A stretch of 64,000 bases of DNA from assembly GCA_963575745.1 (NCBI GenBank), contig CAUYUJ010016350.1, forward strand, positions 21,001-85,000, given 5' to 3'. The stretch comes from Prorocentrum cordatum. Its lineage: Eukaryota; Sar; Dinophyceae; Prorocentrales; Prorocentraceae. Under the pieces are notes generated by a model. That model did not search any database, was not told the DNA's origin, and saw only the letters and a list, made by a program, of their open reading frames with translations. A program made the position numbers and the translations under genes. This document shows positions 21,989-50,552 of this stretch, piece after piece; positions within the stretch are counted from its first letter, which is position 1; every line of letters starts with the position of its first letter.

Positions 21989-24874
21989 TTGTTGACTTCG
22001 GAGAGACGGGCCGCCATGATGGCGAACGAAGAATCTGCGGACGCCCACGCGGTTGCCGCTGCCGTCGCAGTGGCCAACATAGAAGGAGAACAAATCGCGA
22101 CAGCCGTGGCGGAACGAGAAAAGCAGGGATTACAAGAAGAGCTCAGAGCCGCCAGGCTGAAAGCAGACAACACCCAAGCTGTAGCTGCGAAGATAACCGA
22201 CCAGAACAATCTCTATCTGGAAGAGCTTAAATCGCATGAGGGGGCCAGATCGTCTCTTCAGCGTATAATGTCGAGCAACACCAAACGCCCGCCGGCTAAG
22301 CCGTTCGGGTCGAACATGCACCAGCTATCGACGGCCCAGTCGTCGAGCATCGCATCTGCCCCTACGCAATTCGACCAGACGACCGCGGCAAATGCGGGAG
22401 CATCGACCATGCTGGTAGGAGGTGCAACACGCCCTCCTCCCGATGGGAATGGAATCACGCTTCCCGTGGACCAGTTTTGTGCCGTTTGTGTTCGTCCAAA
22501 GACAGACAACTGCGTCGGATGTGGCAGCTCGGCTTGCGACGAGCATATCGATGCGAGTACGAGGAGATGCTCTAGATGCGACCTGTGGAAGAGTGAAAGG
22601 TCAGCGGCTAACATGCGAGAAGAAGTGATTGCATTGAACGCGGCTAACAGAGAGATAGGAAAGATGAGACTTAAGGCTATCATCACTGACCCGAATCCGT
22701 ATTCTGAAACTAAACGCGAAGTCGGACTCACATCGAAGTCGTTCGGATTTCCGTTGTTTTCGCAAGAAACCCCCGTGAGGCCGTTGTTGCATCAACGCTA
22801 TTCTGTCCCAGGACCTGCCCTTGAAGGCCCGGCTAAGCCGAGCACCGCTGAAAATGGACCCCCTGTAGGGATGAGGCTAACTGGACTTAACGAAAATAAC
22901 ACTCTTGCCAATATCCGCACAACCTATGGAGACGACCCTAAGAGAACGACGGCGACTAAGTCGTCGGGCAATGCAGGACAGGGCGGAGAAGATGACGACA
23001 AGAGCGACGCTCCCAACACTGAGATCGTATCTTCGCACGAAGATGATCGAGGCAGAGGACCACGAGGATCGTCTCCGGGGAGTCCAGGGGGGTCAGAAAC
23101 CTCTGATGGCGGGGGTGGACGCAGCGGGCCTCAAGGCCCCGGCGGACCGCACGACTCGATAGTAATTGACGAGAGCACGCCGTTAGATCAGTGGAGACAG
23201 GTTGGTAACCACCAGAAAATTGATCTGTTGGACATCCCTGACGGTGCGAACATTCGTGAGTGGAATATGCACGCAATGCGCTCCATCGCTGGGTCATCGC
23301 CCGAGAGCCAGGCAGCGCAGCACTGGATTGCCGAGGTAATGGATCCAGCCGTGGAAGATGAGCAACTCAAAGATGCTGGACGATTCCAGCGTCCCGACCT
23401 TATGATCGCAACGAATCTGATCGAGAAATTCAACAAGATGCGAAATAATCGATATCAGCCTCCCCATCATACTCATTCCCTTCAACAAGTTCCTCGCATG
23501 GAATTCAGCGCCCAGGCCGAGGGAAGGCTCATGACTGGACGCGAGATGGTGCGGGCGATTTGTCACTGGTGTTCGGTAAGGTCGGAGTTGGGACAACATC
23601 GCATTTCGCGTGACCTCTTCAAAGTGAAGATAGACCCGCACAAGCCTGATGCTGACCTGCATCATGTCTACAATGAATGGACAGACGTATATCAACAGCT
23701 TTATGGCGCCAAGCCTCCGTCCGATGAGATGAGGGCCTCGATTCATGCACACTTTCTTGAGCAATGCAGAAAGCCGAACAAACTGGATTTTGTATGTGAA
23801 TTATATGACTTGTCAAAAGACAGACCGGGAGGCGTCGAGACTTACGAGTGGCTGATGGAGCAGATTGAAGAAATGATGTTGCGAGAAAAAGAAGAGTGGA
23901 ATATCAGCGTGCATGAGGGAACCTTAAACCAACGTGCCAGACAAGCACGATTCGGCGGAGGCGGAGGCAATGACAATCGGAGGAACGCAGGCAATAAAGC
24001 CGCCCCGGCAGAGATTGCCATTAAGTTGGGACAATCCTCGGATGTCATGAAAAGCGGGAGAACCAAGGGCGAAACCACGTGCAGATACGTTACCAAGGGC
24101 GAAACTTGCCCGTGCGCAGGAAAAGGCTGCCCCGTCAATCACAAGAAGCCCAAGAACGCCGCGCCGGCTCAGCCGAGCGCGGGACGAAAGTCCAGTGCCG
24201 CCCCTGCCCAGGATAAGAACCCTAGAGGTAGATCAAAGGACAGGGGCCGAAAGGGGCAGGGCCGATCCCAGACCCCGAATGGAAACCGTGGGAAAGGAGG
24301 ACAGCAGAAGAATAGAAGTCAGTCGCGTGGGAAAGACAGTAATATCCCGTGTTACGCATATTCCCGAGACCCCACGAATTGTCGAGGATCCGAAGACGGA
24401 TGCCACAAGGCCCATAGAAGGCTAACCGATGCTGAGAAGCTGAAGCGTGACAAGTGGGAACAAGCGAAACTTCACGCTGGACAATCTTTGGGATATGAGC
24501 GTACATCCAAACAGGCCAATGCCGCTGCTGCCAAGATCTCTTCGACGGGAAGTAATGGTGGCTCCAGAGCCACTAGTGCTGACTCCGACAAACGACAAAC
24601 GCAAAGGCGGCGGCAAAGGCAAGGACATGGTCTGTCGCTCTTACAGAGAAACGGGAAAGTTCTCACGCGGAAAAGAATGCTGGTTCGCCAAGACCACCCC
24701 AGGTCATCCAGTTACGTGACAATGGCTCCACACTGGCGGCTCAGCCGTCAGTGCTGGAGGGATGACAGACATAATTTTGTTCATGGTATTATTTCTTACC
24801 GTCCTCGTTCGGCAGACGTGGCGAAGCTTGCGTCGGTTGAGCAGGAAACGGGGGGGCTGGAAGAGACCCAGTGA
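21989..24874 (+). CDS. gag: Giant-element Gag-like protein, main frame
   Basis: 961 codons. The frame starts with a coiled coil (AAVAVANIEGEQIATAVAER). A second Cys/His module follows near 22480-22590 (FCAVCVRPKTDNCVGC, SACDEH, CSRCDLW), B-box-like in spacing. A long disordered, Gly/Ser/Asp-rich part is followed by a helical capsid-like region at about 23170-23930 (VRAICHWCSVRSELGQHRIS, YNEWTDVYQQLYGAKPPSDE). Then come Cys motifs TCRYVTKGETCPCAGKGC and PCYAYSRDPTNCRGSEDGC-x3-H, which look like CCCH RNA-binding fingers. The last 60 codons are probably a shadow, because a neighbouring frame (24447-24719) reads a CCCH-like VCRSYRETGKFSRGKECWF. Confidence 0.7.
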   Translation: MLTSERRAAMMANEESADAHAVAAAVAVANIEGEQIATAVAEREKQGLQEELRAARLKADNTQAVAAKITDQNNLYLEELKSHEGARSSLQRIMSSNTKRPPAKPFGSNMHQLSTAQSSSIASAPTQFDQTTAANAGASTMLVGGATRPPPDGNGITLPVDQFCAVCVRPKTDNCVGCGSSACDEHIDASTRRCSRCDLWKSERSAANMREEVIALNAANREIGKMRLKAIITDPNPYSETKREVGLTSKSFGFPLFSQETPVRPLLHQRYSVPGPALEGPAKPSTAENGPPVGMRLTGLNENNTLANIRTTYGDDPKRTTATKSSGNAGQGGEDDDKSDAPNTEIVSSHEDDRGRGPRGSSPGSPGGSETSDGGGGRSGPQGPGGPHDSIVIDESTPLDQWRQVGNHQKIDLLDIPDGANIREWNMHAMRSIAGSSPESQAAQHWIAEVMDPAVEDEQLKDAGRFQRPDLMIATNLIEKFNKMRNNRYQPPHHTHSLQQVPRMEFSAQAEGRLMTGREMVRAICHWCSVRSELGQHRISRDLFKVKIDPHKPDADLHHVYNEWTDVYQQLYGAKPPSDEMRASIHAHFLEQCRKPNKLDFVCELYDLSKDRPGGVETYEWLMEQIEEMMLREKEEWNISVHEGTLNQRARQARFGGGGGNDNRRNAGNKAAPAEIAIKLGQSSDVMKSGRTKGETTCRYVTKGETCPCAGKGCPVNHKKPKNAAPAQPSAGRKSSAAPAQDKNPRGRSKDRGRKGQGRSQTPNGNRGKGGQQKNRSQSRGKDSNIPCYAYSRDPTNCRGSEDGCHKAHRRLTDAEKLKRDKWEQAKLHAGQSLGYERTSKQANAAAAKISSTGSNGGSRATSADSDKRQTQRRRQRQGHGLSLLQRNGKVLTRKRMLVRQDHPRSSSYVTMAPHWRLSRQCWRDDRHNFVHGIISYRPRSADVAKLASVEQETGGLEETQ

Positions 24875-26600
24875 TTCAATCAGCTTGGGTGCCGTCGCGT
24901 GCCCCGCCCCATTATTCCGGGGCTTTCCGGGGCAGAAACAAAACAGCCCTAATTTTTTGGCCATTGCAACTAGTGCCGATGGAGGAGACCATTGGGATAC
25001 CTCCAAAGGTGAGTTTCAACAGGACGGCAGGAAACAGGTCGAGAGTCTCGTCAATGTACTTGCGAATTTCCTGCATCCTCTTTCTCGGGGCGCGATCAAA
25101 AAGTACTGGTGCGTTCCCCCTAGTAAGAGTTGCATACGACATCGGGATAGTAATCGATGCAATCTCCGCGTCCGTTTTCACCCCTCTACTGAGGGGCCGA
25201 CTATCACTTGGAGGAAGGCGCGTCGCCACGATTTGAAAGAGATGCCTTCAAGTACCAGATATAGATGGAAGCTCCCAGGAGAAATGCGTCGACAGATACA
25301 GTCAAGGGCGTCTGTCGCTGAGGCTTTGATCAGAGCATCAGACCGGCAAGATCACGTCTGGCATCTCTGGTTAAAGGACGAAGAGGGGAAAGAAAGCCCG
25401 CACGGCTCAGCCGCTGCTGGATGCACAGACAAAGACGCTGCGTATCTGGGGGCATTGAGCTTCATGATAGACACCGGGTGTGGGTACAACCTAATTGCGG
25501 AGAAATACATTAGGAGCGCAGGTGCAATGAGATTGATACGAAAGCTTCCGCAATCGATCACTCTGAACACTGCCGGGGGAGAATCTAAGGCCCTCGGTTC
25601 AGTTCGCATCGCGTGTCCCAAGTTTAAGGGTGGTAGTTTTACTGCTTTAGTCATGCCGGAGACCCCGTGCGTGATTTGGGTAGGAGAGCGGTGCATGGAT
25701 CGCGGCTTTAGCTTCTTTTGGCCAGCCGGCCAAAGGCCCTACCTACTGTTGCCCAACGGCCAAAGAGTGGACCTAGCCGTTGAGGGCAAGATACCGTACT
25801 TGACCCTATCAGGCAAAGAGGCGCTGGGTCAGTGGATGTACGCAGCTGCCGCCGGAAGGAGTGAGCCCCTCGAGCGGTGGTGTTGCGTGACGCCGGGCGC
25901 CAAGGCATTCTTGGACAACGTGGAATATGCGGGAGGCCCTCCGCCCCACGCTGTCCAGACTCTCGTAACCGTAGACCTGCACACACATGAGCTGATTGGT
26001 ACCCACAGCTACGCTGATGGGCGGCCCACCGAGATCGCGCCCGTTTTCCCGTCTTCGATAGACTCTGCGGAAACCATCACCTACTTCTACTATTCGCCTC
26101 AGTTGGCCAGCGAATGCGGTTGGAATCGGACGCCAATCGGTATTGCTGCCTCCAAAAGTCTCTCAGTTTTGCTCGACCACGGTCAAGCCGTCGGTCCATT
26201 CGACGAGCAGCCCGGCAAAGCCGAGGCTTGTGCTGCCGCATGTAGATGCCATTTTGGATGTGGAGTTTCAGGATACCTCCCGTCCGAAGCAAGTAGAGGA
26301 TTTGACTCCGATGCGTGCAACGCGGCCCCAGGACCCGAGGAGGGTGAAATTGGAGACGCTGACGGCGTCGACTTGGTCGACGTCGACGCACCGCCAAATT
26401 TTGACCCAGACGTTGCGGAGGTTGAGGTGTCGGAGACCCTTGCCAAGCGGCTCACTCCTAAGAACCCATATTGCCCGGTGTGCAATTGGGCCAAAGCTAT
26501 CAGAAAGCAACAGCGTAAAGCGCAGAACAAAGGGCTAAAGGTTCCTCGCCCGTACGCTAACCCCACTTCGTTCGGACAACTGACGACGATGGATCATTAG
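24762..26600 (+). CDS. pol: Giant-element protease and integrase zinc domain
   Basis: The 612-codon frame holds SFMIDTGCGYNLIAEKYI near 25460-25510, a retropepsin active-site strand with intact Asp-Thr-Gly. ITLNTAGGESKALGSVRI and VIWVGERCMDRGFSFFW supply the rest of the fold. Much further on come KRLTPKNPYCPVCNWAKAIR, the zinc-binding N-terminus of integrase, and FGQLTTMDH at the start of the integrase core. The TAG at 26598-26600 falls right after DH, so the core is cut off. A hydrophobic N-terminal stretch (DIILFMVLFLTVLV) may be fortuitous. Confidence 0.8.
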   Translation: MTDIILFMVLFLTVLVRQTWRSLRRLSRKRGGWKRPSDSISLGAVACPAPLFRGFPGQKQNSPNFLAIATSADGGDHWDTSKGEFQQDGRKQVESLVNVLANFLHPLSRGAIKKYWCVPPSKSCIRHRDSNRCNLRVRFHPSTEGPTITWRKARRHDLKEMPSSTRYRWKLPGEMRRQIQSRASVAEALIRASDRQDHVWHLWLKDEEGKESPHGSAAAGCTDKDAAYLGALSFMIDTGCGYNLIAEKYIRSAGAMRLIRKLPQSITLNTAGGESKALGSVRIACPKFKGGSFTALVMPETPCVIWVGERCMDRGFSFFWPAGQRPYLLLPNGQRVDLAVEGKIPYLTLSGKEALGQWMYAAAAGRSEPLERWCCVTPGAKAFLDNVEYAGGPPPHAVQTLVTVDLHTHELIGTHSYADGRPTEIAPVFPSSIDSAETITYFYYSPQLASECGWNRTPIGIAASKSLSVLLDHGQAVGPFDEQPGKAEACAAACRCHFGCGVSGYLPSEASRGFDSDACNAAPGPEEGEIGDADGVDLVDVDAPPNFDPDVAEVEVSETLAKRLTPKNPYCPVCNWAKAIRKQQRKAQNKGLKVPRPYANPTSFGQLTTMDH

Positions 26601-27707
26601 TTTGCGATGGATGAACTCGCGGGGACTTCACGACGAGACCGCGTGTGTGACTTTTCGCGACCGAGCTGCAGATTTTCTCGCCGCTCAGGGTGTACACGAC
26701 AAGTCTGCGGTTCACGTTTGTAACTTTTTAGTGACCCTTAGAGCCCCGGAGGAAAAGTTATAATATTGTTATACAGATGGTGCAAGAGAGCTTGCCTGGG
26801 CATGTTGCGAGCTCAATATTGCCCGTGATCCTACCATCCCAGGAAACAAGAAACAAAATGCTGTCGCCGAGCGTGCGAACGGCGTGGTGCAGATGGGAGC
26901 TGAGCCTTACTCATGCAGGCTGGTCTTCCACCACCATTTTGGACCTATGCAGTTCGATACTTCTGCTTATGCTACAATACAAGGACCCCTGCTGAAGGGC
27001 AGTCCAGTTGGGAAAGACGCTTCGGATGCCAGTTCAATGCTCCGCTTCTTCCGTTCGGATCGCTTATCCGTTATGTGCCTCCGCCTGAATCCCGTTTTCG
27101 CACTGCCCAGACTGGGGCGACGATGATTCCAGGGATATACTTGGGGTATGTGCACAAAGCGGGGGGATTGGTTGGACCCGATAGTTATGTCATACCTCTG
27201 AGACAATTGGACGGACTGAATATGGAGTCAGGGCGCACTCCAGAGGGAAAACGACCCACGATCGAGAAGTCTGACCAAGTGTACAGCAACATCTTAGATG
27301 GTACTGCTGACGACCAATCGCCTCAGTTTCCTTTGCGACAAGCATACGAGAAAGCGGCGACGGAGGCACGTTCCGTCACAATCCCTACAGAAACAGGAGA
27401 GGGTGCGGCCGTCTCAGACGGACCGCAACCAGCCACAGGGATAAGACCGGACAGCATGTTTAATGTGGATGATCCTGCCATTCTGGTGCCACCGCCTCCT
27501 CAGGAAGGCGAGGACGCACCGCGTATTTACTCTGAGGCCGATCTTGATGACGACGGCCCTGGGGGTTTGTATGTGGGTGATGTGCCTTTGGTAGTTGACG
27601 GCATAGACCCTCAGCGCGACTCCCATCCTGCAGACAAAAAACCAAAAACTAGGACTCGCACAACTCGAGTATCGTTTGGACAGACAGTCCAACTTCTCAG
27701 CGGCTAA
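26601..27707 (+). pseudogene. pol: Giant-element integrase core and C-terminal domain
   Basis: Past the TAG, one frame reads HDETACVTFRDRAADFLA, a stop near 26760, then YCYTDGARELAWACCELNI (second catalytic Asp) and KKQNAVAERANGVVQMG (catalytic Glu in AVAER). A shift near 26900 leads to MQAGLPPPFWTYAVRYF, FGCQFNAPLLPFGSLIRYV and IPGIYLGYVHKAGG, which close the integrase. The remainder to 27707 is a Pro/Asp-rich linker ending near VSFGQTVQLLSG. DDE residues are present, but the frame is broken twice. Confidence 0.78.
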
Positions 27708-28644
27708 GCCGCGTGAGAAAGTCCCAGGGAAAGGGCAGCTTCTTGCCCGAACAATTCAAAATTTGGATACATTGGTATATTTCGAAGACAGACGGATTTT
27801 TGCTGGAGTTACAAAAGACGAATTATCTCAGAAACTCTCGTTGACAGGTCGTCGACAGACATGTAGCATACGAGTTGTTCTTTATTATGACCTTGATTAT
27901 GTGCCTATAACCCGAGTGTGGGTCACAGACCCAGACCCAACATACAGTGCCCACTGGTTAAAGAAGTTACCCGAGTCTACCAACCCCGGGATACATCCTG
28001 GACGATGGTTCAACATGGCCCAAGCGCAGCGTCGACAGGCCGTGGAACAATACAAGGCTGAAAAGAGAGGGTTCTTCGGTATAGAGGATTGTCTTTGCCT
28101 AGGTCTTCTGTGTGATATTGGTCTGGATGTGGATGACCCACCGACGCCGCCCGATCCCGCAGTGGCTCAGCCACTTACGGCTCTCCCCGAAGCCAGGCTA
28201 ACTGCACCTAAGGTGGCTGAGCAGCTACGTCGAATACAAAACGGCAGCCTGTGCTATGCCCCTGGCAGTGGGCGAGGGGCGGCGTCGCGAAATACCCAGG
28301 GCTGTCCAACCACATCTCAAACTGACGATCCATTAGAAGAAGACGTTCCTAACGGACACCTGTCAGACGACGAAGACATGTGGTGGAAACAAACATGGTA
28401 TGGAGGCACTATAGCAAGAGACGGGCTACCCTCTGGCTCAGCCGATAGGGGTCCTTTATCCGATGATGATAACGGACAATCTGAGGACAACGAAGAGGCA
28501 AGCCTGACCTCGAGTCCGGCGGCCGCCGCGTCGCGGCGAAGCGTGCCTCGAATGCCATTACGAGATAATCAGACACAGATATCAGTCATCGTGACAAAGA
28601 AAAAATTGATTTGCAATGCGTCTATAATCCATTCACAGATATAA
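27676..28644 (+). CDS. Linker between integrase and RT in the giant element
   Basis: This 322-codon frame overlaps the end of the integrase frame by 32 bases. It is mostly polar, with RRQTCSIRVVLYYDLDYVP and HWLKKLPESTNPGIHPGRWF as its more ordered parts. It contains two of the CGGCT-type palindromes (27701, 28163) and several decayed ones. I recognise no domain. Such connectors between integrase and RT are normal in copia Pol. Confidence 0.5.
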   Translation: MDRQSNFSAAKPREKVPGKGQLLARTIQNLDTLVYFEDRRIFAGVTKDELSQKLSLTGRRQTCSIRVVLYYDLDYVPITRVWVTDPDPTYSAHWLKKLPESTNPGIHPGRWFNMAQAQRRQAVEQYKAEKRGFFGIEDCLCLGLLCDIGLDVDDPPTPPDPAVAQPLTALPEARLTAPKVAEQLRRIQNGSLCYAPGSGRGAASRNTQGCPTTSQTDDPLEEDVPNGHLSDDEDMWWKQTWYGGTIARDGLPSGSADRGPLSDDDNGQSEDNEEASLTSSPAAAASRRSVPRMPLRDNQTQISVIVTKKKLICNASIIHSQI

Positions 28645-29644
28645 TAACTGTCATCGATGAGCCTTCCCAACTTCCCAATGACTGGCAATGCGCTCGCATA
28701 GATGCCGCCGTAGCCAGATCCGTCTAGAAAGACGATGCAAATTCAAACAAAGACGCGCAAGCTGCCTTGAGAAAAGAGTGGGACAGACTGCGGGACATTG
28801 GCACGCGGCTCGAAGATGGTGCCAGGGAATATTCCGACGTTGTTGCCGAAATCAAAGGGAAGACGGCTCATTTTGGCAGCTTATTTGCGATCCTTGTTGA
28901 AAAGAACTCAGAGTTACCACTAGGACACAAAGACCGCAAGTAAAAAGGTCGGGTGGTCTTTGACGGTTCGAGTGTTAGAGATCAAGACAAAGATGCGGCA
29001 CTATTTCAGGAACTTTCCAGCAGTCCCGCGACAATGCAGGCCAGCAAAGCAGCCGATACTTACGGGCTGTTTGAAGGCCACAGCATCGAACAAGCCGGCG
29101 CTCGACAAGCTTACACACAGTCAAAGTTGGGAGGCACTCGTACTTGGGTTTTCTTGCCTCGTGACGAATGGCCCAAAGCATGGCCCAACATGAGAAACCC
29201 CGTATGTCCTCTGTACTTATCCCTGTGCGGACATCCTGATTCGGGCGGGCACTGTGAACAGCATTGCGAGGGACATGTCACGGCGAAAGGTTTTGTGAAA
29301 TGTAGTCCGTGGCGAAGCTGTTATTTCCACAAACAGAATTGCAAATGTCCTTGATCATTTATGTCGATGATTTCAAATTGTCGGGACCTGCCGACAAGCT
29401 GGCCCAGGGATGGAAGTTACTTCAAGAACCTTCGGGGAATTGCCCTAAGGGCATAGAAATAGATCCTCCAACAGCTGTTGGACGATATTTAGGATGCGAG
29501 CATAGATTATCAACTCAGACAATTGAGTGGCACGGAGAGTTACCTACGGCACTCGACCCGCCTCCTCCAAAAGTTAAGAAAACGCCTCCGTCACAGACGA
29601 GAGTAATGAGGAGGAAACGGGGGGTGACTCGGCATCTCAGATGA
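28645..29644 (+). pseudogene. pol: Giant-element reverse transcriptase
   Basis: In one frame, after a TAG, ALRKEWDRLRDIGTRLEDG and AHFGSLFAILVEKNSELPLG give the RT N-terminus. After a TAA near 28942 the frame continues KGRVVFDGSSVRDQDKDAAL, SSSPATMQASKAADTYG, QAYTQSKLGGTRTWVFLPRD and LCGHPDSGGHCEQHCEGHV. A shift near 29330 leads to SLIIYVDDFKLSGPADKL, an intact YVDD catalytic box, and PTAVGRYLGCEHRL. The wording matches dinoflagellate copia RTs closely. Two stops and one shift disrupt it. Confidence 0.88.
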
Positions 29645-30791
29645 CCGAGCCGTACCAGCCGAGAGAACCGAAATTAGTTAAAGTTATCGAATACGATATG
29701 ACCGAGTTTTTCGATTCCTGCGTTACCTTATACGCTCAATTGACGGACGCAGACCCGGCCACATATCCGGCCGCGGGTACCCCGTTCGGTCCAGAACTTA
29801 CTGACTTAGAAGACGGACAGGGCGGCCCCAGAGGAGAGATCTACTCCCCGGCTGAGGAGGCTATAGCATCAGCGCTACAGATCAACGTTGACACCGGCCC
29901 TCCTGACCAAGAATTAGAGGTGATTGGCCTCGATGCCGCAGCAGCTAGCCCTGATGACCCTGAGCCACCGACTCAGACGGGAGTGCTTCAGCCAATTGCA
30001 GCAAAAGTCCTGATGCTAATACTTTACGGGGCTAGACTGGCGAGATACGACCTACTCCGTGCCGTGTGTCAAACTGCCAGCTGCATCGCAAAATGGGCAG
30101 ATCAACAAGACATGGACCTCTTCCGCCTCATATGTTACATAAAATGTTCATATCCTTATCGTATGACCTCGAGGGTGGGTGATAAAAAGGAGGATGTTCT
30201 GCTAAAACAATACTCTGATGCAGATATGGCGAGTGACATCCGAACACACAGGAGCACGAGCGCTAGCTACCAAGCAATATGGGGCCCATATACACGGGCA
30301 GGCCAGTCGTTGAGTTCGCAAAGACAAACATGCGCATCTCATAGTACACTTTGGGCCGAGATCGTTGCGGCAGACCTTGCGTTACGCAAGGAACTGCTTG
30401 CGGCATTACCGCTGTGGGAGATCCTGCTGGATAGACCTGCGCGATGTTTATTCTTGGAAGATAACCAAGCAGTTTGCAAAGTCACCAAGGCAGGCGGGTC
30501 AATGAAGCCGATGCATCTAGCAAGAACGCATCGAATCGATGCCGCAGCTGTGTCCGAAGAATTTCTCGTGGCCTTGTTCAATTACAATACGAAAGAACAC
30601 AAAACGAGGCTGCTGATATTGGAACAAGACGATTCGTTGACCCAATGGCGTGGGTCAAAGTATTATACCTCGTCAACACAGTGACGCCTAAGTTCTGGGC
30701 CGCTAAGCGGTGCCAATATTATCTCGACTCAATGTTTTCTGACGGACTTCCCCTGGAACCCGGGGGGATTCCAAGCCCCGCCTGGGCCTAG
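29641..30791 (+). pseudogene. pol: Giant-element RNase H
   Basis: ARLARYDLLRAVCQTASCI precedes KQYSDADMASDIRTHRSTSA (first Asp), STLWAEIVAADLALRKEL (Glu) and LEDNQAVCKVTKAGGSMKPM (second Asp region). A frameshift near 30590 moves the sense frame to 30474-30791, where TQNEAADIGTRRFVDPMAW gives the copia-type exit. This end of Pol is followed by the cargo region. Confidence 0.85.
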
Positions 30792-31040
30792 TTCGGCCTT
30801 GCGGAGAGGAGCTGCCATACCTCGCAAAAAGTCAAACAAAAAGAAATGCGCCCCAACAAAGGCAAACCCGTCGTGGCTGCCCCCGGCCAAGCCGAGGAAT
30901 TGTTAAAGACAAAGAATGCAGTCAGCTCAGCTGATGTTGCAGGTAATGCCACTCCTCGGATGGGCAAATAATGTCACAGCAGAAGCTCAGAGAAAACGAG
31001 AGCGATCGAACACACAACAAAAAGAAGCTCTGATCGTGAG
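30792..31040. other. Gap between Pol and the first cargo frame
   Basis: No gene is seen. It contains a TCAGCT-C-AGCTGA palindrome (30922-30934) and a decayed CGGCCAAGCCG (30884-30894), members of the dispersed family. Confidence 0.5.
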
Positions 31041-33276: not shown

Positions 33277-33333
33277 AGGCCTTCCTCTCGAAAGCCTCCC
33301 CACGGCTCAGCCGTTGCGGAAGGGTGGGGAACG

Positions 33334-40541: not shown

Positions 40542-40554
40542 TGGGGGCGGTGGG

Positions 40555-42417: not shown

Positions 42418-45084
42418 CTACAAGTGCACTGACCCAGCGGCTGGGCCTTGAGGGCCTCGATGCTGAAACAAAAGTCGCTGCAGCCTCTGAGGCACCCCCC
42501 GAGCGACGTGCAACTTGACCGTCTCCTCCGCCGCGCCGATGGGCAGCCCCCTCGAGGGCCCGTCCGCCAGGTTCAGCTCCGACGGCACCCAGCGGTAGTA
42601 GCCTCTGATCCTGCACACCATCTGGATGATCCCCGCGATGCGGCACAGGTGCAGGACGTCCTTCGCCGAAGAGCGCCCCTTCTGCAGCGCCCCCAGCGAC
42701 ACCAACGAGTCCGTGAAGATCAGGATCCTGTGCCCCCATGCCTGCGAGGTCCTGCTCAGATGCCTCAGCGTGGCCACCACCGTCCGAAGCTCCAGGATGT
42801 TGTTGTGCTCCTGGTCCCCCCACTTCCCGCAGAAGAGGACGTGCCAGTGGTGCTCCAGCCACGCGGGCCTGAGAGGCATGGTCGTCCCCGTCGCCTTGGC
42901 GATCTGGGTCCTGCCTCCTCGCAGCCTCAGCCGGGCCCCCGCTGGTATCGTTCCCCACGCAGGCTCGAGCTCCTTCATGATCTCGGCGTAGCACCTGCAG
43001 AGCTCGAGTGGGTACGCGCATGCCAGCTGTGTCCACCTGAGCCCACATGGTGACTTCCCCCTCAGTTCCTGATGAGGCCCCCGCGTGCGACTGCAGCAGC
43101 GAAAGGTACCTGTACACTTCCTCGCCAGCTTCGTCATCTCCCTCACGCTCGTGACAAACGCGGTGGGCTTCTTCCAGACCCCGCCAAACATGCAGTAGTC
43201 CAGCTCCACCCTCCAGACGTCTGCCTTCACAAGCACCTCCACCAGCGGTGGGAAAGCCCAAATGTAGCTCCCAGCAGGATTCTCCAAGCTGAAGGGGATC
43301 GCCAGCGTCACGCAGACCTTCAACACTTCCACCGCCACCAGGCACAGCAGGTTGCCCTCCTCGAGCTTGGTCTGACTTGGTCCGTCCAAAGTGGGCAGCC
43401 CCCAGATGCACTCGGTCGACCTCAGAGGCGGCACCCGAGCTTTCGAGAAGGTGGCACAAGGCGGCGCTAGGTGAACCCACCAGTACCACCCCTGCCGCAG
43501 CCTCCTCAGCAGCAGCTCCAGGTTCTCGCACACCAGCACGTCGTACTCGGCCCCCTCCGAGATGTCCCACGCCTCCCCCCAGGAGTTCGTGAGGTCATTG
43601 ACGGCATCCAGCAACCTCGACGACCCCGAAAACAACTCCAGCACCCCCGGGCGGCCAGCCTGGGGTCGGGCCGGAAGATCCTCCTCGTCGCCCTCGGCCT
43701 CCACCGTCCTCTCCACCTCGGTGTACAAATCCTCCACCAGGGGGCCCCAGAGACCTTCCGTCCCCCGTGCCGCTTCCGCTCTCGCCTCCTCGGGATCGCA
43801 GTCGCAGGCCAGGGCTCCGTATCCGCTCTCCGAGGCGTCCGCCATGTACGCACGTGGCCACCAGGGGGCCTCCAGGTCCGCCTCCATGTAGATCGAGAGG
43901 CTGACCAGGGCCGCGAGCTCGCTCTTGACGATCTCGGGCAGCCTCCTGGGCACGACCGCCTCCTCCAGCTCCCAGCTCCGAACCCATCTGTAGGTCTCGT
44001 CCAGGATGGCGAACGCGGGCCTGAACACCATCATGGTCCACGTCCAGTGGCCCACCAGACTCGACAAGACTGCTGGCTGAGCAGCGTCCTCCGTCAGCAG
44101 GGCCTCCGTCGCCAAGACCAGCTCCGCCAACTTCTTCGTCTGGACCCTCAGGACGTAGGGCCTGGCCGTAGGTATCGTGAGTCCAAGCCCCGCGCTGAGC
44201 CCCTCTCCCCAGTCCTCCTTGTGGATCGCGAGGCCCTTGCTGTTCAGGAGCTCCTTCACCTCCTCCTTGTCCTTCACGATGTCCTCCTCCTCGCCTGGGC
44301 CCTTCAGAGTAAAACCAATGTAATCGTCGATACACAGCATCAGGATGAGCTTCGCCGCCACCTCCTCGGCCGTCCCGTCCTCCACCGCCTCGGTCACGCT
44401 TGGGGGAAGATCCCCCTGCTGCAACGAAGGTCGAGTGGCTGACGTCGGGCTCCGAAAGCTTGGGGTCGGCTTCCCATAGGTAATACTCGGCGCCCGCAAT
44501 GACTCGAAACGCGCTTCCAGGCAGGTGCGTGCCAAGAAGACCGCCCAGGCCGAGCCCATCACCGGGCTCGCTGCTCCAAGACCGATCTCCGTACCCAAGG
44601 GCACTCTGAAGTTCAAGCCCTTCTCCTGCCCGTACTGGCACAGCTCCCGCGGCGACACGCCCTCCACGACAAAGAACTCCGCCAGTTCCGAGCCCCAGTG
44701 CAGTCGATAAAACCAATCGGGTACGTCGCCCTGGAATGAGAAGAGCCGCCGCCCATGTAGGATGACCTCGTCCAACTCCAGCAAAGCCAGACCGGCGGGA
44801 CTCCCAAGCGGCACCCACGGAGGCTCGTGAAAAAGAACGTTGACCTTCCGGCAGTCCCAGATCAGGCGGCTCTTGAGCACTACCCCTGAGCCGGGGTCGA
44901 CGTCCTTGGCCACTGTGAAGAGACCGACCTTCACCCTCACCTCCTTCACGTAGTCGAGCATCCCCGCCTGGCACATGCGCGCCAGGAGCTCCAGCTTCTC
45001 GGTCCTGCTTCTCAGCGCCGGGTCCGAGTAGCTCTTCGTCTTCTCGTATCGCTCCCAGTCCACCTCGCCAGGGCTCTTGATCAT
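42418..45084 (-). CDS. RT/RNase H of the DIRS-like element with an internal methyltransferase-like module
   Basis: 888 codons. RT: LKSRLIWDCRKVNVLFHEPP, FQGDVPDWFYRLHW and LILMLCIDDYIGFTL (YxDD-type box, near 44330). RNase H starts with AYMADASESGYGALACD (near 43830). About 300 residues later it resumes with NNILELRTVVATLRHLSR, ILIFTDSLVSLGALQKGR and YRWVPSELNLADGPSRG. Between them lies VLELFSGSSRLLDAVND, WVHLAPPCATFSKARVP, PFSLENPAGSYIWAF and LDYCMFGGVWKKPTAF, the motif order of a cytosine-C5-type methyltransferase (SAM loop, PPC, ENP, and a late motif). The frame is intact here and stops at 42418. Its N-terminus continues upstream in other frames. Confidence 0.82.
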   Translation of the reverse strand: MIKSPGEVDWERYEKTKSYSDPALRSRTEKLELLARMCQAGMLDYVKEVRVKVGLFTVAKDVDPGSGVVLKSRLIWDCRKVNVLFHEPPWVPLGSPAGLALLELDEVILHGRRLFSFQGDVPDWFYRLHWGSELAEFFVVEGVSPRELCQYGQEKGLNFRVPLGTEIGLGAASPVMGSAWAVFLARTCLEARFESLRAPSITYGKPTPSFRSPTSATRPSLQQGDLPPSVTEAVEDGTAEEVAAKLILMLCIDDYIGFTLKGPGEEEDIVKDKEEVKELLNSKGLAIHKEDWGEGLSAGLGLTIPTARPYVLRVQTKKLAELVLATEALLTEDAAQPAVLSSLVGHWTWTMMVFRPAFAILDETYRWVRSWELEEAVVPRRLPEIVKSELAALVSLSIYMEADLEAPWWPRAYMADASESGYGALACDCDPEEARAEAARGTEGLWGPLVEDLYTEVERTVEAEGDEEDLPARPQAGRPGVLELFSGSSRLLDAVNDLTNSWGEAWDISEGAEYDVLVCENLELLLRRLRQGWYWWVHLAPPCATFSKARVPPLRSTECIWGLPTLDGPSQTKLEEGNLLCLVAVEVLKVCVTLAIPFSLENPAGSYIWAFPPLVEVLVKADVWRVELDYCMFGGVWKKPTAFVTSVREMTKLARKCTGTFRCCSRTRGPHQELRGKSPCGLRWTQLACAYPLELCRCYAEIMKELEPAWGTIPAGARLRLRGGRTQIAKATGTTMPLRPAWLEHHWHVLFCGKWGDQEHNNILELRTVVATLRHLSRTSQAWGHRILIFTDSLVSLGALQKGRSSAKDVLHLCRIAGIIQMVCRIRGYYRWVPSELNLADGPSRGLPIGAAEETVKLHVARGVPQRLQRLLFQHRGPQGPAAGSVHL

Positions 45085-45905
45085 CAGCTTCTGGCACGGA
45101 TCGATATAGCTGCCTGCGCAAGCCGAGAGGTCCTGGACACGAAGAGGCGCCGTGCCCGGGGGATGGTAGGGAGACCTGACCAGCTCGAAGGGGGCACAGA
45201 TCCCCCTTTTTGTATCTTGTCACCTTCTTCTTCTCCATCTCCATCTTCTTCCTTACCGTTGTGAAGTAGCCGCTGCCCGCCGTCTCCTCGAGGCGGCCAA
45301 GAGCCACCTTGCCGTCGCTGATGGTGCCCCAGCCCGCCCGCGCGGCGTGCCGGTCCCAGATGTCGCTGACGATCCTCTTCTGGAGCGGGCTGCTCGCTGT
45401 CCACTTCTCCTTTGCCACCTCCTCCGTCTTCAGTGGCGATGGGGTAAGCCAGCCACTCGCACGGCCCGAAGCCATACTCCTGATCGCCGAAACCGTCCTC
45501 CCCACCCTCCTCCACGTAACACGCAGACTGACAGAACTCAAACCCGCACTTGATCTCCTCGTACACAGTGGAAAGGGGAGGTCGGGGAGTGATCTCAGCG
45601 GATCGCGCTCTCGAGGATCCATTCACGACGCCTGGGAAAGCTCCCACCTGGTGACCTGCACCACGACGCACTGGTTGACTTGCCTGCGGCAGTGGAGCCT
45701 CGAACAGGTCGACACCGACCTCTTCAGACTCGAAAATCGCCTGGGCGGGTAGGCCCTCCCAGACACGCTCGATGAACACCCAGCCCAGCAGGCGCCCGAG
45801 GAACCCGATCAGGATGACGGCCTGAGGCGGGCGGCGAGAGGTCGCCGGCCCCCCCAAGCAGCGTGGTGCGGTGCCTGTAGCACGCTCTTGGCCAGTGGTT
45901 ACCAC
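45085..45905 (-). pseudogene. Frame-shifted N-terminal part of the DIRS-like Pol
   Basis: Protein-like sequence alternates between two frames. 45084-45905 gives PQAVILIGFLGRLLGWVFIE and EEIKCGFEFCQSACYVEEG. The frame of 43595-45622 gives SPLQKRIVSDIWDRHAARAG and GYFTTVRKKMEMEKKKVTRY. It returns to the first near 45190 (SRTSRLAQAAIS), just before the long RT frame opens. At least two frameshifts are therefore needed. No catalytic motif is expected here. Confidence 0.5.
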
Positions 45906-45923
45906 GATCCCACCGGCCGCAAC

Positions 45924-48116
45924 CTATTCGCCGTCGGCACCGCCTGCCCCGCCGCCACCTGCGTTCAGGTGCTTGTTGAGGGTCGCGCGGCGCCTTAACT
46001 TCTCCAGGACTTCCTCATCGGCCTTCAGGTTCTCGCTGTCCCGATCTCCGTCCAGCCTCAGGTACTCCTCCGCCAAACTCCAGTCGACCTTGGACTTCCA
46101 CTTGCCCCCGTTCTGCTGCTTGGGCCTCTGCCAGTCTGCCCTGCACTGGACCCGCTCGTAGGCCTTCCAGATCGAGTAGAGCCGCAAGCAGGTCAGCTCG
46201 GACGCCTGGCTATTGATCAGCGCGTCGTGCTCCCCCGAGGTCATCATGCGGTCCAGCACCATGGCTAACATGTTCACCTCGTTCGCCACCGTCGCGCCCT
46301 GCAGCTCCTTGCTGCGAAGCCACTCCTGCGTCTCGACGCGGGCCGCCCTACCTCCACGGTAGAGCTTCGCCAACACCGTCGGCGCGACCCGAGTCCGGAC
46401 CCCGCCGACCTGACCGCCCACCGCGGGCCGGTACTGCTGCAGCACCGTCAGGAGGCTGTCCTTCGGGTTGGTCGACTCCAACTTCAGCTGCACGATCTGG
46501 CCCTTCATGGGATCGTCGAGCTCGGCGCCAATCTTCTCCCACGAGCCGCTGCTCCCACTGCTGCTCACAGGCGTCGCCGAGCCCGCCGTCGCCTTCGCCG
46601 AGTCCCTCGCCACGACCCCCTCGTGCTCGTTCAGCTTCCGAATGAACGCGTCGATGTCGCCCCCACTCGGCTCCGACACGCCAGGCGTCCGAGCCCCCTC
46701 TGGGGACTCTTCTCGGCGTGTGGCCTGGCCTGCGGGCGCCTGAGCAGGGTGCGACGTGGGCGCCCTTGCCTCGGCCTCCTCGCGCATCCGGTCCTTCAGG
46801 TCGACCGCCGCTGAGGCCAGCTCCGCTTGACCCCTCGCCAGCTCCGAGAACAAGGCCTTCGCATCGGGCTCCTCGTCACTGTCGCTCACATCTCGTCCCC
46901 CGATGATGGCCGTCCCGTCGTCGCTGTCGCTCTCGCTGTCCGAGCTGTCACCTCGACCCTCGCCGCCGTAGGCGTAGTACATCCAGATCGTGTATCCTGC
47001 CACCGCGATCCCACCGACCGTGCAGGCGATCTTCTCCAGGTCCCCGTTCTCGTACATGTCGTTGACCAGCTCCCTCACGGACTGCAGGTCCTCGAACGCC
47101 TGGAAGCCCGCCTTCACGGTGTGGTAGCCGCCGCTCAGCCACGACCCCAGCTCCAGGTAGCGCCACACGCGCCACCCAAGAAAAGCCGCCGAGCCCCACG
47201 CGCCGGCGGTGCAGTAGCTCCAGCCGGCCACAGCAGCCGTGCTCACCCCCATGAACATCCAGCTAGCCATCGCCGTCTTGGAGCTCGACTTCTTCTTCTG
47301 GGCCTGCTTCACCTTCTCCGTGCGCGCCTCGGCCTCCTTCAGCTCCGAGCGAGCTATGAGGCGCTCGGAGGCGATCAGCGCGGCATCCCGCTGCTTCTCG
47401 GTGAGGCCAGGGTGCTCCGTCCACACGATCCCCTGCTTGGGCTTGCTGAGAGCGAACTTCTTGTCACGTACATTCACCAGCACCACCCGCTGCGTCGGGT
47501 CCACCGCCGTCCACAAGGTGGACTTGGCCCCTCCGACCTTGGTGATCAGGAGGAGCACCACCCCCGTCGGCTTCGACTGCGACAGTAGGTACAGGCGGTT
47601 CCAGCGCGCCCACGGCGCCATGTAGTTGGGCCGACTCCCCCTGAACAGATCCTCCACGCCGTCCTGCCCCGCGGGCGCTGAGAAGAGCGGCTCGCTGTCG
47701 CTCTCGCCCTCCTCCGCGCTGGCCTCCCACAGGCCCGGCAGCAGCGCCTCCCACTCGCTGGCCACGATCGCCAGCGCCAGGGCCCACCCGACAGGCCCCG
47801 CACGCGCCGTGGCGACGCGAGGCCACGTGGCGCGGCGCGCCCGTGGCAGAGGCGGCGCCCGCCGCCCAGGGTGGCCCACGCCCGTGTCGCCGCGGGCTGC
47901 GGCGGGCACGGGCCAGCGGCCGCGCTGCAGGCCCCAGCGGGGCCGCGATCGCCCGCGAGCGCGCGGGCGCCTCGAACACCTGAAGGCTGGTGTGCTCGAA
48001 GGCTCGAGAAATGGCGGGCCTGCCCGCCTCTCAAACCTCTCGAGCCGAAACTGCAGCCAAACAATAGTAATGACATGCAACAAATGGATGCAATGAAGGA
48101 AAATGACATGCAACAA
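45924..48116 (-). CDS. ORF1 of the DIRS-like element, membrane-anchored Gag-like protein
   Basis: 730 codons. The first 150 lie in or near the A1 repeat and are Arg/Pro/Ala-rich, so translation may start later, for example near MAPWARWNRLYLLSQSKP. A charged helix (LIARSELKEAEARTEKVKQA) is followed by hydrophobic segments SWMFMGVSTAAVAGWSY and ACTVGGIAVAGYTIWMYYAY. Then come an acidic Ser/Asp run (SDSESDSDDGT), a disordered region and a helical C-terminal third (SKVDWSLAEEYLRLDGDRDS). Its position upstream of RT fits the Gag slot of DIRS elements. Two membrane segments in that slot are unusual. Confidence 0.6.
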   Translation of the reverse strand: MLHVIFLHCIHLLHVITIVWLQFRLERFERRAGPPFLEPSSTPAFRCSRRPRARGRSRPRWGLQRGRWPVPAAARGDTGVGHPGRRAPPLPRARRATWPRVATARAGPVGWALALAIVASEWEALLPGLWEASAEEGESDSEPLFSAPAGQDGVEDLFRGSRPNYMAPWARWNRLYLLSQSKPTGVVLLLITKVGGAKSTLWTAVDPTQRVVLVNVRDKKFALSKPKQGIVWTEHPGLTEKQRDAALIASERLIARSELKEAEARTEKVKQAQKKKSSSKTAMASWMFMGVSTAAVAGWSYCTAGAWGSAAFLGWRVWRYLELGSWLSGGYHTVKAGFQAFEDLQSVRELVNDMYENGDLEKIACTVGGIAVAGYTIWMYYAYGGEGRGDSSDSESDSDDGTAIIGGRDVSDSDEEPDAKALFSELARGQAELASAAVDLKDRMREEAEARAPTSHPAQAPAGQATRREESPEGARTPGVSEPSGGDIDAFIRKLNEHEGVVARDSAKATAGSATPVSSSGSSGSWEKIGAELDDPMKGQIVQLKLESTNPKDSLLTVLQQYRPAVGGQVGGVRTRVAPTVLAKLYRGGRAARVETQEWLRSKELQGATVANEVNMLAMVLDRMMTSGEHDALINSQASELTCLRLYSIWKAYERVQCRADWQRPKQQNGGKWKSKVDWSLAEEYLRLDGDRDSENLKADEEVLEKLRRRATLNKHLNAGGGGAGGADGE

Positions 48117-48161
48117 ATGATGTGACGATGCTACTGTAAAAGTGTGTTTGTAAAACGCGTA
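48044..48161 (-). repeat. A1, 5' terminal repeat of the DIRS-like element
   Basis: About 118 bp, matching A2 (40555-40662) with a roughly 10-bp length difference in the middle, where ATGACATGCAACAAATG is duplicated in A1. The outer end is ACGCGTA at 48161. Confidence 0.88.
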
Positions 48162-48361
48162 GGAGAGCTTCTGCTAACGTTGCGAAAAAAACGTCGCCAA
48201 CAACAATCAGCAGGGGCGAAAATGGGAAACCAGCTTTGTCACAATGGCGGCTGCTGGCACAATATTTGGCAACAGCCAGCAGGGAAACTTTCCAGCCTAG
48301 GCCCCAGAAAACGCCGAGGCTCAGCCCCTGGCGCGACATGCTCCTTTCTTTCAATATCTAA
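48162..48361 (+). pseudogene. Cargo frame interrupted by the DIRS-like element, right part
   Basis: In the phase set by 40004-40211, this stretch is open for 65 codons (RASANVAKKTSP, PALSQWRLLAQYLATASR) up to a TAA at 48359-48361. It is basic and of unknown function. Confidence 0.5.
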
Positions 48362-48366
48362 GGCCT

Positions 48367-49578
48367 TTGGTCAAGAGATTTAGATCGTGGTTCGAACACT
48401 CGGCCACACATGTGCGGAGGCGAACCCCGCCGATTAACAAATGGTGGCCAAAATTGTGGGCGACTGGTTTTGATCAGTATGCCCGCCCCAGGTCCTGCCC
48501 AGCACTACAAGCATTTCACTGGCCTAATGAACCAGATGATTTGATCACTCCTAGGATTGGCTGGGCACAATGGTTCAACAACATGAGGAGAGCAAACCTC
48601 TTTGTTCCTACACATGCCACAGTGGATGATGCCATACAGTTTGACATGTCATGGTTCGGCGTATTTCCTGAAGATATTGGAAACAACGCCAACAACGACA
48701 ACCCTCCTGCGAGGTTACCGGTCGCCTGGGAGGACAATTTTAGAGCGCGACCGACTCGCAGTTCTCACTCCGTTGCAAGACGGGTCAGCATGTGTCGGGG
48801 CCATCGTCTCATAGTTCCCGTGTTGCGACATGCCTCCGGCTCAGCCGCGAGGGCACGTGAACAGTCACAAATGGATCTGGACCTCAAAGTGACCAGCGGG
48901 CCTAAGGTTGCGTCGATAACTGACGGATTCCTCACACTTGATGAACCTGATCGACACGTATACTTTCATCATGAGGACCGCCTGATTAAAATAAGATTGT
49001 TCGGGGACGAAGTTCGAGAAGTTGCCGCTCATTACATAATTGAACGCACGGGAATAAACCCTACTACACCCGGCAGGGTTACCCTGACTGGAACGGCAGA
49101 CTATGCGATCCCGGCGATCATCAAGAAAATCGTGGATGACAATTGGTTAGTACCAACACAAAACATGGAGCTGGGCCTTAGACCCATAAGGATTTTCGCA
49201 ATTATTCGTGAGATAATCAGCTGTTTCATATCGGAGGACCATTTCATTGGTTACCCGGGGCGAATCATTCGTCCCGAAATGATGAGCACGGATCAAACCG
49301 AATCAAAGAAACGAACCGACGCATATGCCTTGGACTGTCGAATTCGTGTAGCTGTTGAGACAGACGACATTATAGAAACATGGGCCCACAAGATGGGCAG
49401 GAAAGTACAGAACGACGTCCGTCACCATGGTGCTATAATACAGGAGGCCATAACTTGGCTACAGGACAAGTATCCTGACCCCGGTACCGATCTTCAGGAC
49501 AAGGAAGATGGTCCTTTCCGCACTGCGTGCGGACTATATGGTGTCGCTGCAGCAACTGCTGCCAGAAGTATATTGTAA
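48367..49578 (+). CDS. Unknown cargo protein E
   Basis: The 403-codon frame is intact and opens six bases after the stop of the previous frame, so one stop may separate parts of a single protein. It has alternating globular blocks: KWWPKLWATGFDQYARP, DRHVYFHHEDRLIKIRLFGD, YAIPAIIKKIVDDNWLVPTQ and IFAIIREIISCFISEDHFIG. Its AT content is higher than the GC-rich surroundings. One CGGCT palindrome (48837) encodes a Gly-Ser-Ala insert. It is not recognised. Confidence 0.5.
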   Translation: MVKRFRSWFEHSATHVRRRTPPINKWWPKLWATGFDQYARPRSCPALQAFHWPNEPDDLITPRIGWAQWFNNMRRANLFVPTHATVDDAIQFDMSWFGVFPEDIGNNANNDNPPARLPVAWEDNFRARPTRSSHSVARRVSMCRGHRLIVPVLRHASGSAARAREQSQMDLDLKVTSGPKVASITDGFLTLDEPDRHVYFHHEDRLIKIRLFGDEVREVAAHYIIERTGINPTTPGRVTLTGTADYAIPAIIKKIVDDNWLVPTQNMELGLRPIRIFAIIREIISCFISEDHFIGYPGRIIRPEMMSTDQTESKKRTDAYALDCRIRVAVETDDIIETWAHKMGRKVQNDVRHHGAIIQEAITWLQDKYPDPGTDLQDKEDGPFRTACGLYGVAAATAARSIL

Positions 49579-49597: not shown

Positions 49598-50062
49598 ATG
49601 ACCCTGAGCACGATGGCGAAGCCGAGATCGTGGGGCCACGTGCGCCTGCTGGACCAAAGGCAATACCTTTGTCTCGCACCGTCTCTTCGACCTGGCATCT
49701 CAGATGCTCAGGCGTCTGAGGAGGCCACTGGTTCCCCACGTTCTGCCGCCGGCTCAGCCGCGCCGACCAGAGAGGCTAACCTACAAGATCCCAACACGAG
49801 GGATCGGTCGGATTTGCGACGCGCGCGCGATGCAGCCACGGATGATGCCTCTGTCGCGGCCGCCGATGATGCCGCCGGCCTTGCGCTGCCCGCGGCGGTG
49901 GGCGCCGCCGCAGGCGCGGCCTCGGACGCTGCCAACAGCGCCGCAGGACACGGCTCCACATGCGACCCTGACCAGTCCTCCCCGACCCACGTGAATGGAA
50001 TCCTTGTTGGATATCACCTCCATCGGAACAGGATCACGCGGCTTAATAACGATGAAATGTAG
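49598..50062 (+). CDS. Ala/Asp-rich cargo frame
   Basis: 154 codons, largely Ala/Asp/Ser/Arg (DDASVAAADDAAGLALPAA), probably disordered. It carries the palindrome at 49750. It is short and low in complexity, so a real product is uncertain. Confidence 0.3.
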   Translation: MTLSTMAKPRSWGHVRLLDQRQYLCLAPSLRPGISDAQASEEATGSPRSAAGSAAPTREANLQDPNTRDRSDLRRARDAATDDASVAAADDAAGLALPAAVGAAAGAASDAANSAAGHGSTCDPDQSSPTHVNGILVGYHLHRNRITRLNNDEM

Positions 50063-50552
50063 AATTTGCCTTACTGGACCCGGCTGTCAAAGCGAGAGCA
50101 CGATCATCATTTCCCGCCGAGAGAGGCGGCACAGGATGGAAATACTGACAGAGGGAAAGGGCGGTCTCGCACGCCTCGTGGCATGGACGTACAGACGGGA
50201 GGATCGGCGACTTCAAACCCGCCGCCTCCGGCGCCGCCCAGGCGAGAGAGTTCGTGGAATCCGTGGGGGGGGCTCAACTGAGCGCGGCCCGCGTGACTCC
50301 GTCCGCGGCATGCGCGCGCCAAACACTTTACCCACGCGCTAAGCGCGCTGGGCGCGGACCTCCCTACTGGTCGGCTAAGCCGGTCCAGCGGAGAGAAACT
50401 ATTTATAACTATGGTGGGAAACGTCGAGCCTCTTCGGCCCTTGGCCCCCTGGCAGCCACCGTTGACCCGTGAAGGCTTTTTCGGGTTGGCTCCGGTGGTT
50501 GTGCAAATGTACAGGCCGGGGGTGCTGTGGCTGGATGGGCTCTACGCGGCCC
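50063..50552. other. 3' untranslated part of the giant element
   Basis: Only short frames are present. It holds the last palindrome of the dispersed family (50372-50382), flanked by CTGG and CCAG. No gene is assigned. Confidence 0.5.

Follow-up and report, generated by a model that had tools for sequence, protein, structure and literature searches.

Covarying stem-loops dispersed along a giant copia-like retrotransposon of Prorocentrum cordatum as candidate RNA recognition signals

Introduction

Coat proteins read features such as an interrupted stem topped by a small loop of conserved sequence. The packaging signals of retroviruses (psi) and of Ty1 are local and lie mainly near the 5′ end. 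Repetitive extragenic palindromes (REP), miniature inverted-repeat transposable elements (MITE) and Rickettsia palindromic elements (RPE) are small palindromic mobile repeats. Here we describe an array of short hairpins carried by a giant copia-like long terminal repeat (LTR) element in Prorocentrum cordatum. The stretch analysed, referred to throughout as the window, comprises 64,000 nucleotides (positions 21,001 to 85,000 of the forward strand of contig CAUYUJ010016350.1, assembly GCA_963575745.1) with a G+C content of 0.589, and coordinates are those of the window unless another record is named.

Coat proteins of single-stranded RNA phages are reported to touch arrays of operator-like stem-loops in assembly (PMC10610835, PMC8880383, PMC4751978), and in Qbeta 33 of 77 stem-loops are operator-like (PMC8880383). 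The sequences of dispersed packaging signals in RNA viruses are described as diverse or degenerate (PMC4751978, PMC8880383), and such signals are therefore hard to prove from sequence. The array described here may be compared with MS2 and Qbeta in its dozens of similar stem-loops along a sense RNA. It departs from them in several ways: an LTR retroelement of roughly 23 kb within a large genome carries it, its bulge lies 3′, its loop letter switches between copies and its reader is only putative. Motif and loop also vary less than in Qbeta, for which "diverse sequence motifs" are reported. One sharp motif is repeated about 40 times, and covariation is of two kinds, between sites within the element and between copies at a site.

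Retroviral and Ty1 packaging signals are presented in PMC8096270 as cis-acting RNA structures meant for recognition by Gag, a likeness to the present hairpins; unlike those signals, the locus holds about 40 equal units across the internal region. With REP, MITE and RPE it shares short palindromes about every 0.5-1 kb, but its arms are not copied from each other, the loop is strand-specific and orthologues are in place. The carrier resembles Ty1/copia elements, which are reported from the dinoflagellate S. microadriaticum (PMC11453091), in its LTRs, target-site duplication and copia-like protease and RNase H. It differs from them in its length (about 31 kb with a nested insert), in extra open reading frames (ORFs) without a Pfam family, in a CCHC knuckle that was not found and in the hairpin array itself. 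Among the titles and abstract openings of open-licence papers surveyed, no retroelement with such a hairpin array was found.

Results and Discussion

A 22-nt hairpin is repeated along the element

The palindromes are carried by a copia-like LTR element at 19988-50905, about 31 kb including the nested insertion. An initial annotation had counted 15 exact copies of an 11-mer palindrome, CGGCTNAGCCG, and exactly 15 were recovered, all within 22293-50382 and none elsewhere in the window. Its expectation of well under one copy by chance also held, with a mean of 0.10 in shuffled windows (maximum 1 over 100 shuffles) and of 0.04 in the shuffled element without the nested insert (maximum 2 over 200 shuffles). 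Five variants in which both arms had changed together were present as described (TGGCT/AGCCA at 28163 and 33717, CCGCT/AGCGG at 30700, CAGCT/AGCTG at 30923 and 39183), as were longer matched flanks at 24737, 27701, 35549 and 50372, which proved to be the outer stem of a larger hairpin.

This larger unit is 22 nt long and consists of a 5-bp outer stem, a 1-nt 3′ bulge and a 4-bp inner stem closed by C-G beneath a triloop, and CGGCTNAGCCG is its commonest form. The loop reads U-H-A in the window element (H being any base but G) and Y-H-A across copies. We list 42 such hairpins, all on the plus strand, from 20344 to 50388 with the nested insertion excluded, in coding and non-coding parts alike; a forty-third site, 27829, was dropped for poor pairing. 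On the 43-site list the gaps ranged from 36 to 1887 nt, plus one of 9134 spanning the nested insertion, and no periodic spacing was seen by eye. The single 11-mer and its five variants were thus real but too narrow a description, as 37 of 82 CT[ACT]AG cores carry three more perfect pairs, and the span first given fits the exact 11-mers but not the class, which begins at 20344, just past the 5′ LTR. The nested insertion and the flanks had appeared to lack the palindrome; armed CTHAG cores do occur outside the element (4/76), two of them in the nested insertion.

Arms of five perfect pairs were found on 37/107 C-T-N-A-G cores in the element, against 2-8% for the other cores listed. By core, stems were present on 23/53 CTCAG, 9/19 CTAAG, 5/10 CTTAG and 0/25 CTGAG. 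The inner arms differ (15 types among the 37 perfect hairpins) and the outer arms are variable too. When all 82 CT[ACT]AG cores of the element were taken without selection, Watson-Crick pairs exceeded expectation at each inner position (observed/expected 47/23, 55/28 and 50/32) and, offset by one nucleotide, in the outer stem (38/21, 45/24, 41/24 and 34/26). The resulting profile covers inner positions 2-5 and outer positions 6/7 to 10 shifted one base 3′, with little further out, and no comparable pattern was found around the 25 CTGAG cores of the element or the 76 CTHAG cores outside it. The outer stem reached at least 4 bp in 17/37 perfect hairpins, while re-dealt flanks gave a mean of 3.6 such hairpins and at most 11 in 2000 re-deals. 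The 42 hairpins are 82.8% paired against 56.8% after shuffling, with a covariation score of 0.617 against 0.169; as the inner stem had entered into the choice of these rows, the outer stem is the freer test. Among isolated 26-mers, the fold of inner stem and loop was predicted in 38/42.

A covariance model was trained on the 18 hairpins below 30 kb and applied to the 24 above, which had been held out. It found 22/24 of these on the plus strand, missing 36275 and 39188 there. The 64-kb window gave 47 matches at E<1, all in the element, 43 of them on the plus strand and 4 on the minus strand mirroring plus-strand matches; the other 41 kb of the window gave none. In an Rfam search of 19988-50905, all 7 hits with E of 10 or less fell short of the gathering score.

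Thirty-six hairpins lie in 15 listed ORFs and 6/42 outside those ORFs. Over the 37 ORF memberships of these 36 hairpins, the loop centre falls on codon position 2 in 19, on position 1 in 17 and on position 3 in 1. The statement that all reading phases are used therefore holds only in part, and this avoidance of codon position 3 implies that the coding frame matters somewhat. It is also what could be said for the array being an artefact of composition or of a protein repeat. That explanation is contradicted, and we give it next to no credence, as dinucleotide shuffles yielded 0.8 such stems (maximum 4 over 200 shuffles) against the 37 observed, the sites occupy two frames as well as non-coding stretches, and the arms covary.

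The individual hairpins, all on the plus strand, are as follows. Loop UCA is carried by hairpins 1 (20344-20365), 2 (21084-21105), 3 (21232-21253), 4 (21546-21567), 8 (24160-24181), 9 (24732-24753), 10 (25398-25419), 12 (27405-27426), 14 (28158-28179), 16 (28429-28450), 18 (29628-29649), 20 (30918-30939), 21 (31487-31508), 22 (32537-32558), 23 (32903-32924), 24 (33298-33319), 26 (33751-33772), 27 (33814-33835), 29 (35544-35565), 30 (36265-36286), 33 (37734-37755), 34 (38218-38239), 37 (48312-48333), 38 (48832-48853), 39 (49691-49712) and 40 (49745-49766). Loop UAA is found in hairpins 5 (22288-22309), 6 (22825-22846), 7 (22948-22969), 13 (27696-27717), 15 (28200-28221), 17 (29437-29458), 19 (30695-30716, in a conserved coding stretch), 31 (37005-37026), 32 (37383-37404), 41 (50331-50352) and 42 (50367-50388), and loop UUA in hairpins 11 (27285-27306), 25 (33712-33733), 28 (35427-35448), 35 (38974-38995) and 36 (39178-39199). 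Hairpins 19 to 42 are those held out, and all but 30 and 36 were matched by the model on this strand. One non-Watson-Crick inner pair is present in 5/42 hairpins, at sites 28439 (hairpin 16, U-G), 37015 (hairpin 31, mismatch), 37393 (hairpin 32, G-U), 37744 (hairpin 33, G-U) and 48322 (hairpin 37, mismatch). Three further model matches on the plus strand are possible variant hairpins, at 25999-26024 (loop UAC, E 0.48), 29582-29607 (loop ACA, E 0.12) and 33167-33192 (loop CCA, E 0.67).

Strand specificity of the hairpin

Read on the opposite strand, CTCAG becomes CTGAG, and a double-stranded site should therefore carry equal stems on both cores. Since their stems are so unequal, the hairpin is a feature of a single strand. 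This strand specificity of the loop also leaves the suggested double-stranded recombination site without support. What folds is the sense strand of the element or, formally, any single-stranded form of it; the RNA of the element would be the simplest choice, one favoured by plausibility.

A single-stranded DNA signal in the minus-strand complementary DNA (cDNA), acting in reverse transcription or integration as a pause, strand-transfer or recombinase site, has to be weighed here, because strand specificity would suit any single strand. Wobble pairing does not prove RNA over minus-strand cDNA, since G-U was not clearly preferred to A-C: one-sided changes gave a G-U:A-C ratio of 27:20 against 859:814 in controls (p 0.46), which counts for the cDNA signal without deciding the matter. 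In the outer stem both were under-represented, G-U with 12 against a shuffled mean of 20.2, itself a point for DNA, and A-C with 7 against 22.6, so that G-U was somewhat less depleted, a point for RNA. Some 40 dispersed copies, many of them in ORFs, would moreover have no obvious use in reverse transcription, and we regard a cDNA signal as improbable.

Stems are conserved and compensated between genomic copies

A search of the genome (4.13 Gb, 21,875 contigs) for the 11-mer, as the initial annotation had proposed, located it in 9436 places against 8304 for a reversed-pattern control, so that it is not rare; these places included tight clusters that turned out to be copies of this element family. 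Through such clusters seven copy groups were reached (C4a, C4b, C4c, C45, C49, C69a and C69b). Loci L016-L018 and L001-L004 were chosen for holding the 11-mer and hence are not random controls. In 160 kb of fetched loci the hairpin model gave 103 matches at E<=1, with 3 in L016-L018, which have no aligned copy, and 0 in L020.

The 42 sites of the window gave 117 site-by-locus alignments, of which 107 were ungapped, 82 of those with all four inner pairs. The ten gapped alignments included no deletion larger than 9 nt, and a 27-nt insertion at site 28439 in L011. The 4-bp stem was kept at 90/117 aligned sites, compared with 112/342 for other triloop stems (p 7e-17). Of the inner-pair cells 40/346 had changed, 17 of these 40 by two-sided Watson-Crick replacement, while in control pair cells 3169/8436 had changed and 239 of 3169 were of this kind (p 2e-9 for the difference). 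Substitutions per site over the seven copy groups amounted to 0.082 in the inner stem, 0.153 in the outer stem and 0.213 in the flanks, the last with a codon rhythm. Thus conservation exceeds the coding background, and covariation, seen both within the element and between copies, strongly supports the claim that selection keeps the stem as such.

Paired changes could be followed at single sites. At 29638 (hairpin 18) the window has CAT/ATG arms where L006 has CGT/ACG and both L007 and L015 have CGG/CCG; at 39188 (hairpin 36) CAG/CTG in the window is replaced by CGG/CCG in L009 and L013; and at 49701 (hairpin 39) CAT/ATG in the window is replaced by CGT/ACG in L009. Site 22958 (hairpin 7) reads CGA/TCG or CGG/CCG, with compensatory change in L010 and L011, and site 21242 (hairpin 3) CAC/GTG or CGC/GCG, with compensatory change in L010.

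These alignments bear on the idea that the palindrome is a tiny mobile hairpin (MITE- or REP-like) inserted many times, which the initial annotation had entertained. The recurrence of the same 11-mer in 15 copies would suit it, as would the 27-nt insertion in L011 and local tandem repeats of hairpins at 30-nt spacing. Against it, the perfect copies hold 15 inner arm types with variable outer arms, no flanking direct repeat was found (at most 4/42 for any 4-mer cell), orthologous sites are filled in place and neither a clean empty site nor a clean loss of the 22-nt unit was found in the 117 alignments. By eye, the protein of the outside relative P0001 is equally long around site 30705, even though other residues stand at the hairpin. 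Repeated insertion is contradicted by these results, and we consider it very improbable indeed. As a class, mobile palindromic repeats (MITE-, REP- or RPE-like) were considered and set aside: sequence shared by descent among the units was not found, nor were target-site duplications or empty sites.

The 30-nt repeats occur in L015 (6737/6767/6797) and in the C4 record (285697/285727 and 299003/299033), which suggests that short duplications, in multiples of three nucleotides, can add to the number of hairpins. The C4 record (L006-L008) also holds the counterpart of window 24511-34752 twice, head to tail and about 10 kb apart, the second lying 13 kb further on. The duplicated stretch is 14% diverged over 24511-28900 and may represent an internal duplication or two joined copies.

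The first loop base differs along a whole copy

Within the loop, the first base changed far faster (0.33 substitutions per site) than the second, central base (0.08) or the third, A (0.05), and this rapid change reflects more than drift. The copy C4c (C4:553953-578479, LTR-like at both ends, 239 bp of which are 92% identical) carried stems on 51/173 C[CHA]G but 6/53 C[THA]G cores of its sense strand, and on 4/60 and 3/51, respectively, of its minus strand. In the window element stems were found on 37/81 THA against 4/82 CHA cores, a contrast in loop preference with C4c at p 3e-16. The first loop base therefore differs, U against C, along one whole copy: CHA exceeded THA in 6/6 blocks of C4c, its unselected CHA cores showed the inner stem and the outer stem, offset just as in the window element, and no inner-stem pairing was found at its 47 C-CGA-G cores. 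At orthologous sites the first loop base had gone from T to C at 13/19, against a background of 0.19 elsewhere in the copy (p 3.6e-6). C49 is also mainly CHA (12 against 3 THA) and groups with C4c over 38521-39640 (support 0.993 in an unrooted tree).

Such a lineage-wide change can be set against a mutational origin, in which template switching during reverse transcription perfects imperfect palindromes. This process would work on one strand and would yield perfect arms. It leaves unexplained the Y-H-A loop, the exclusion of G, the 3′ bulge, the lower substitution rates and the change of loop letter along a lineage; other triloops show a small excess at most, AAA among them (5/52, with no clear covariation). 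We disfavour this origin and think it very unlikely.

Candidate function of the array

Of the three guesses made initially, we favour that of an RNA signal for packaging or stability, on the grounds of a single-strand-specific loop, a bulged stem-loop, compensatory conservation and the lineage-wide switch of loop; the structure is well supported and the function is what we infer from it. Features that would be looked for in dispersed packaging signals were present: many similar stem-loops through the sense genome (42 on the plus strand), a shared loop and bulge with otherwise free stems (YHA, C-G closing pair, 3′ bulge, covariation), and selection on structure seen as slower substitution with compensatory changes, RNA being the presumed folding strand. 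We give roughly even credence to a view in which the palindrome tops a 22-nt stem-loop of the element's sense RNA and this stem-loop serves as a dispersed, lineage-specific packaging or assembly signal, probably with a reader encoded by the element.

About 40-50 stem-loops are spread across the coding and non-coding internal region, and in this proposal a single RNA-binding protein would read every hairpin of a given element. If one reader binds them all and its preference shifts, the same loop letter is expected to change at dozens of sites. This reader may be a capsid or nucleocapsid protein, for which the loop switch is indirect evidence only, and through which each lineage would package its own 23-25-kb RNA by way of dispersed hairpins.

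The reader could instead belong to the host. A host RNA-binding protein acting in export, stability, translation or silencing might read the hairpins, the element having acquired or retained them because of such reading or in spite of it, and both the sense-strand stem-loop architecture and the sites in coding and non-coding parts would fit. However, a single shared host factor would not yield loop letters that differ along copies in the same genome, which makes a reader encoded by the element likelier, and outside the element the window holds no model match at E<1. We thus consider a host reader unlikely, though less so than a cDNA signal.

A bolder version of the packaging proposal, which we advance tentatively and think somewhat less probable than the signal itself, is that the loop letter, U or C in the 40-50 hairpins of each lineage, would serve as a self/non-self address. 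A capsid or nucleocapsid domain of the element, standing in place of a zinc knuckle, would co-evolve with it, only the element's own RNA would be packaged, and the code would switch at dozens of sites in step. No CCHC zinc knuckle was present in any frame of the window copy of the element, and the three hits to a relaxed CCHC pattern among the fetched copies did not convince on inspection by eye; the missing knuckle is only circumstantial, because the copies are decayed. The natural loop-letter variants along a whole copy make the notion of many sites and one reader protein testable from sequence, and co-variation offers a route to finding that protein.

Several results weigh against dispersed RNA signals with a shifting reader. 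In a 101-nt context, the inner-pair probability exceeded 0.5 for only 27/42 hairpins; 27/117 orthologous sites lacked the full 4-bp stem; one codon phase is avoided by the loop centre; and across the genome the 11-mer does not occur in high number. All seven copy groups come from one genome, on four of its contigs, and it was the 11-mer itself that led to them; C4a and C4b, lying head to tail, may be parts of one rearranged copy. With regard to the loop, one block of C4c had AHA and CHA stems in equal number (3 each), the C69 copies are mixed (THA 16, CHA 10) and C4b has GHA stems at 8/75. C4c joined the window and C4a over 24511-28900 (support 0.969), a stretch not covered by C49, and both trees, being unrooted, give no direction to the U/C change. 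Finally, no Pfam RNA-binding family reached the cut-off in the ORFs scanned, the 48301-49575 ORF matching dsRBD2 at E 0.13.

The carrier element and its surroundings

The giant element has both the LTR pair and the target-site duplication of an LTR retrotransposon. Its LTRs (5′, 19988-20329; 3′, 50564-50905; both on the plus strand) are 342 bp each and 95.3% identical, and the 5-bp duplication TTGTC stands on the outer side of both. Putative copia-like pol pieces (protease, integrase, reverse transcriptase and RNase H) lie in several broken frames at 24720-30681 on the plus strand. The protease piece matched the gag-asp_proteas profile weakly (E 0.013, under the cut-off), and the integrase and reverse transcriptase pieces were recognised by eye. 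The RNase H part has protein relatives (P0003-P0022, mostly from unnamed sources), one of which, P0017, contains RVT_2. Two of these, P0003 and P0009 (EukProt, labelled Pyramimonas sp. AAC.1), share 81% and 87% identity with stretches of the RNase H region (28944-30681), reflecting either horizontal transfer or sequence of a foreign organism within that green-alga data set.

Downstream of these pieces, an ORF at 30972-32981 on the plus strand contains a conserved methylase-like domain, named by eye from its degenerate methyltransferase look, with no Pfam match; its only relatives in the protein search were P0001 and P0002, on contigs of 1270 and 2493 bases. A protein search with 34359-36017 gave zero relatives, viral-contig searches with three queries found no relative, no Pfam family was at cut-off in the giant-element ORFs examined, and a PDB sequence search of one ORF returned two matches at E ~0.1. 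The first ORF contains a (TA)n run at 21304-21349, where the alignment with L005 breaks.

The nested insertion, which lies outside the hairpin family, occupies 40212-48161 (no strand assigned) and owes its DIRS-like label to the initial annotation. Locus L012 provides the empty site, its positions 5620 and 5622 corresponding to window 40211 and 48163.

To the left of the element, a 126-bp direct repeat with copies about 6 kb apart spans 13566-19724, with no hairpin-model match at E<1 there, and two clear CCHC knuckles are found at 14607 and 14739. Two arrays lie downstream of the element (59543-60442 and 61853-62393): one is a tandem array with a 75-bp unit, and the other is of GGCCTCTTGG type with a step of about 10.5 bp.

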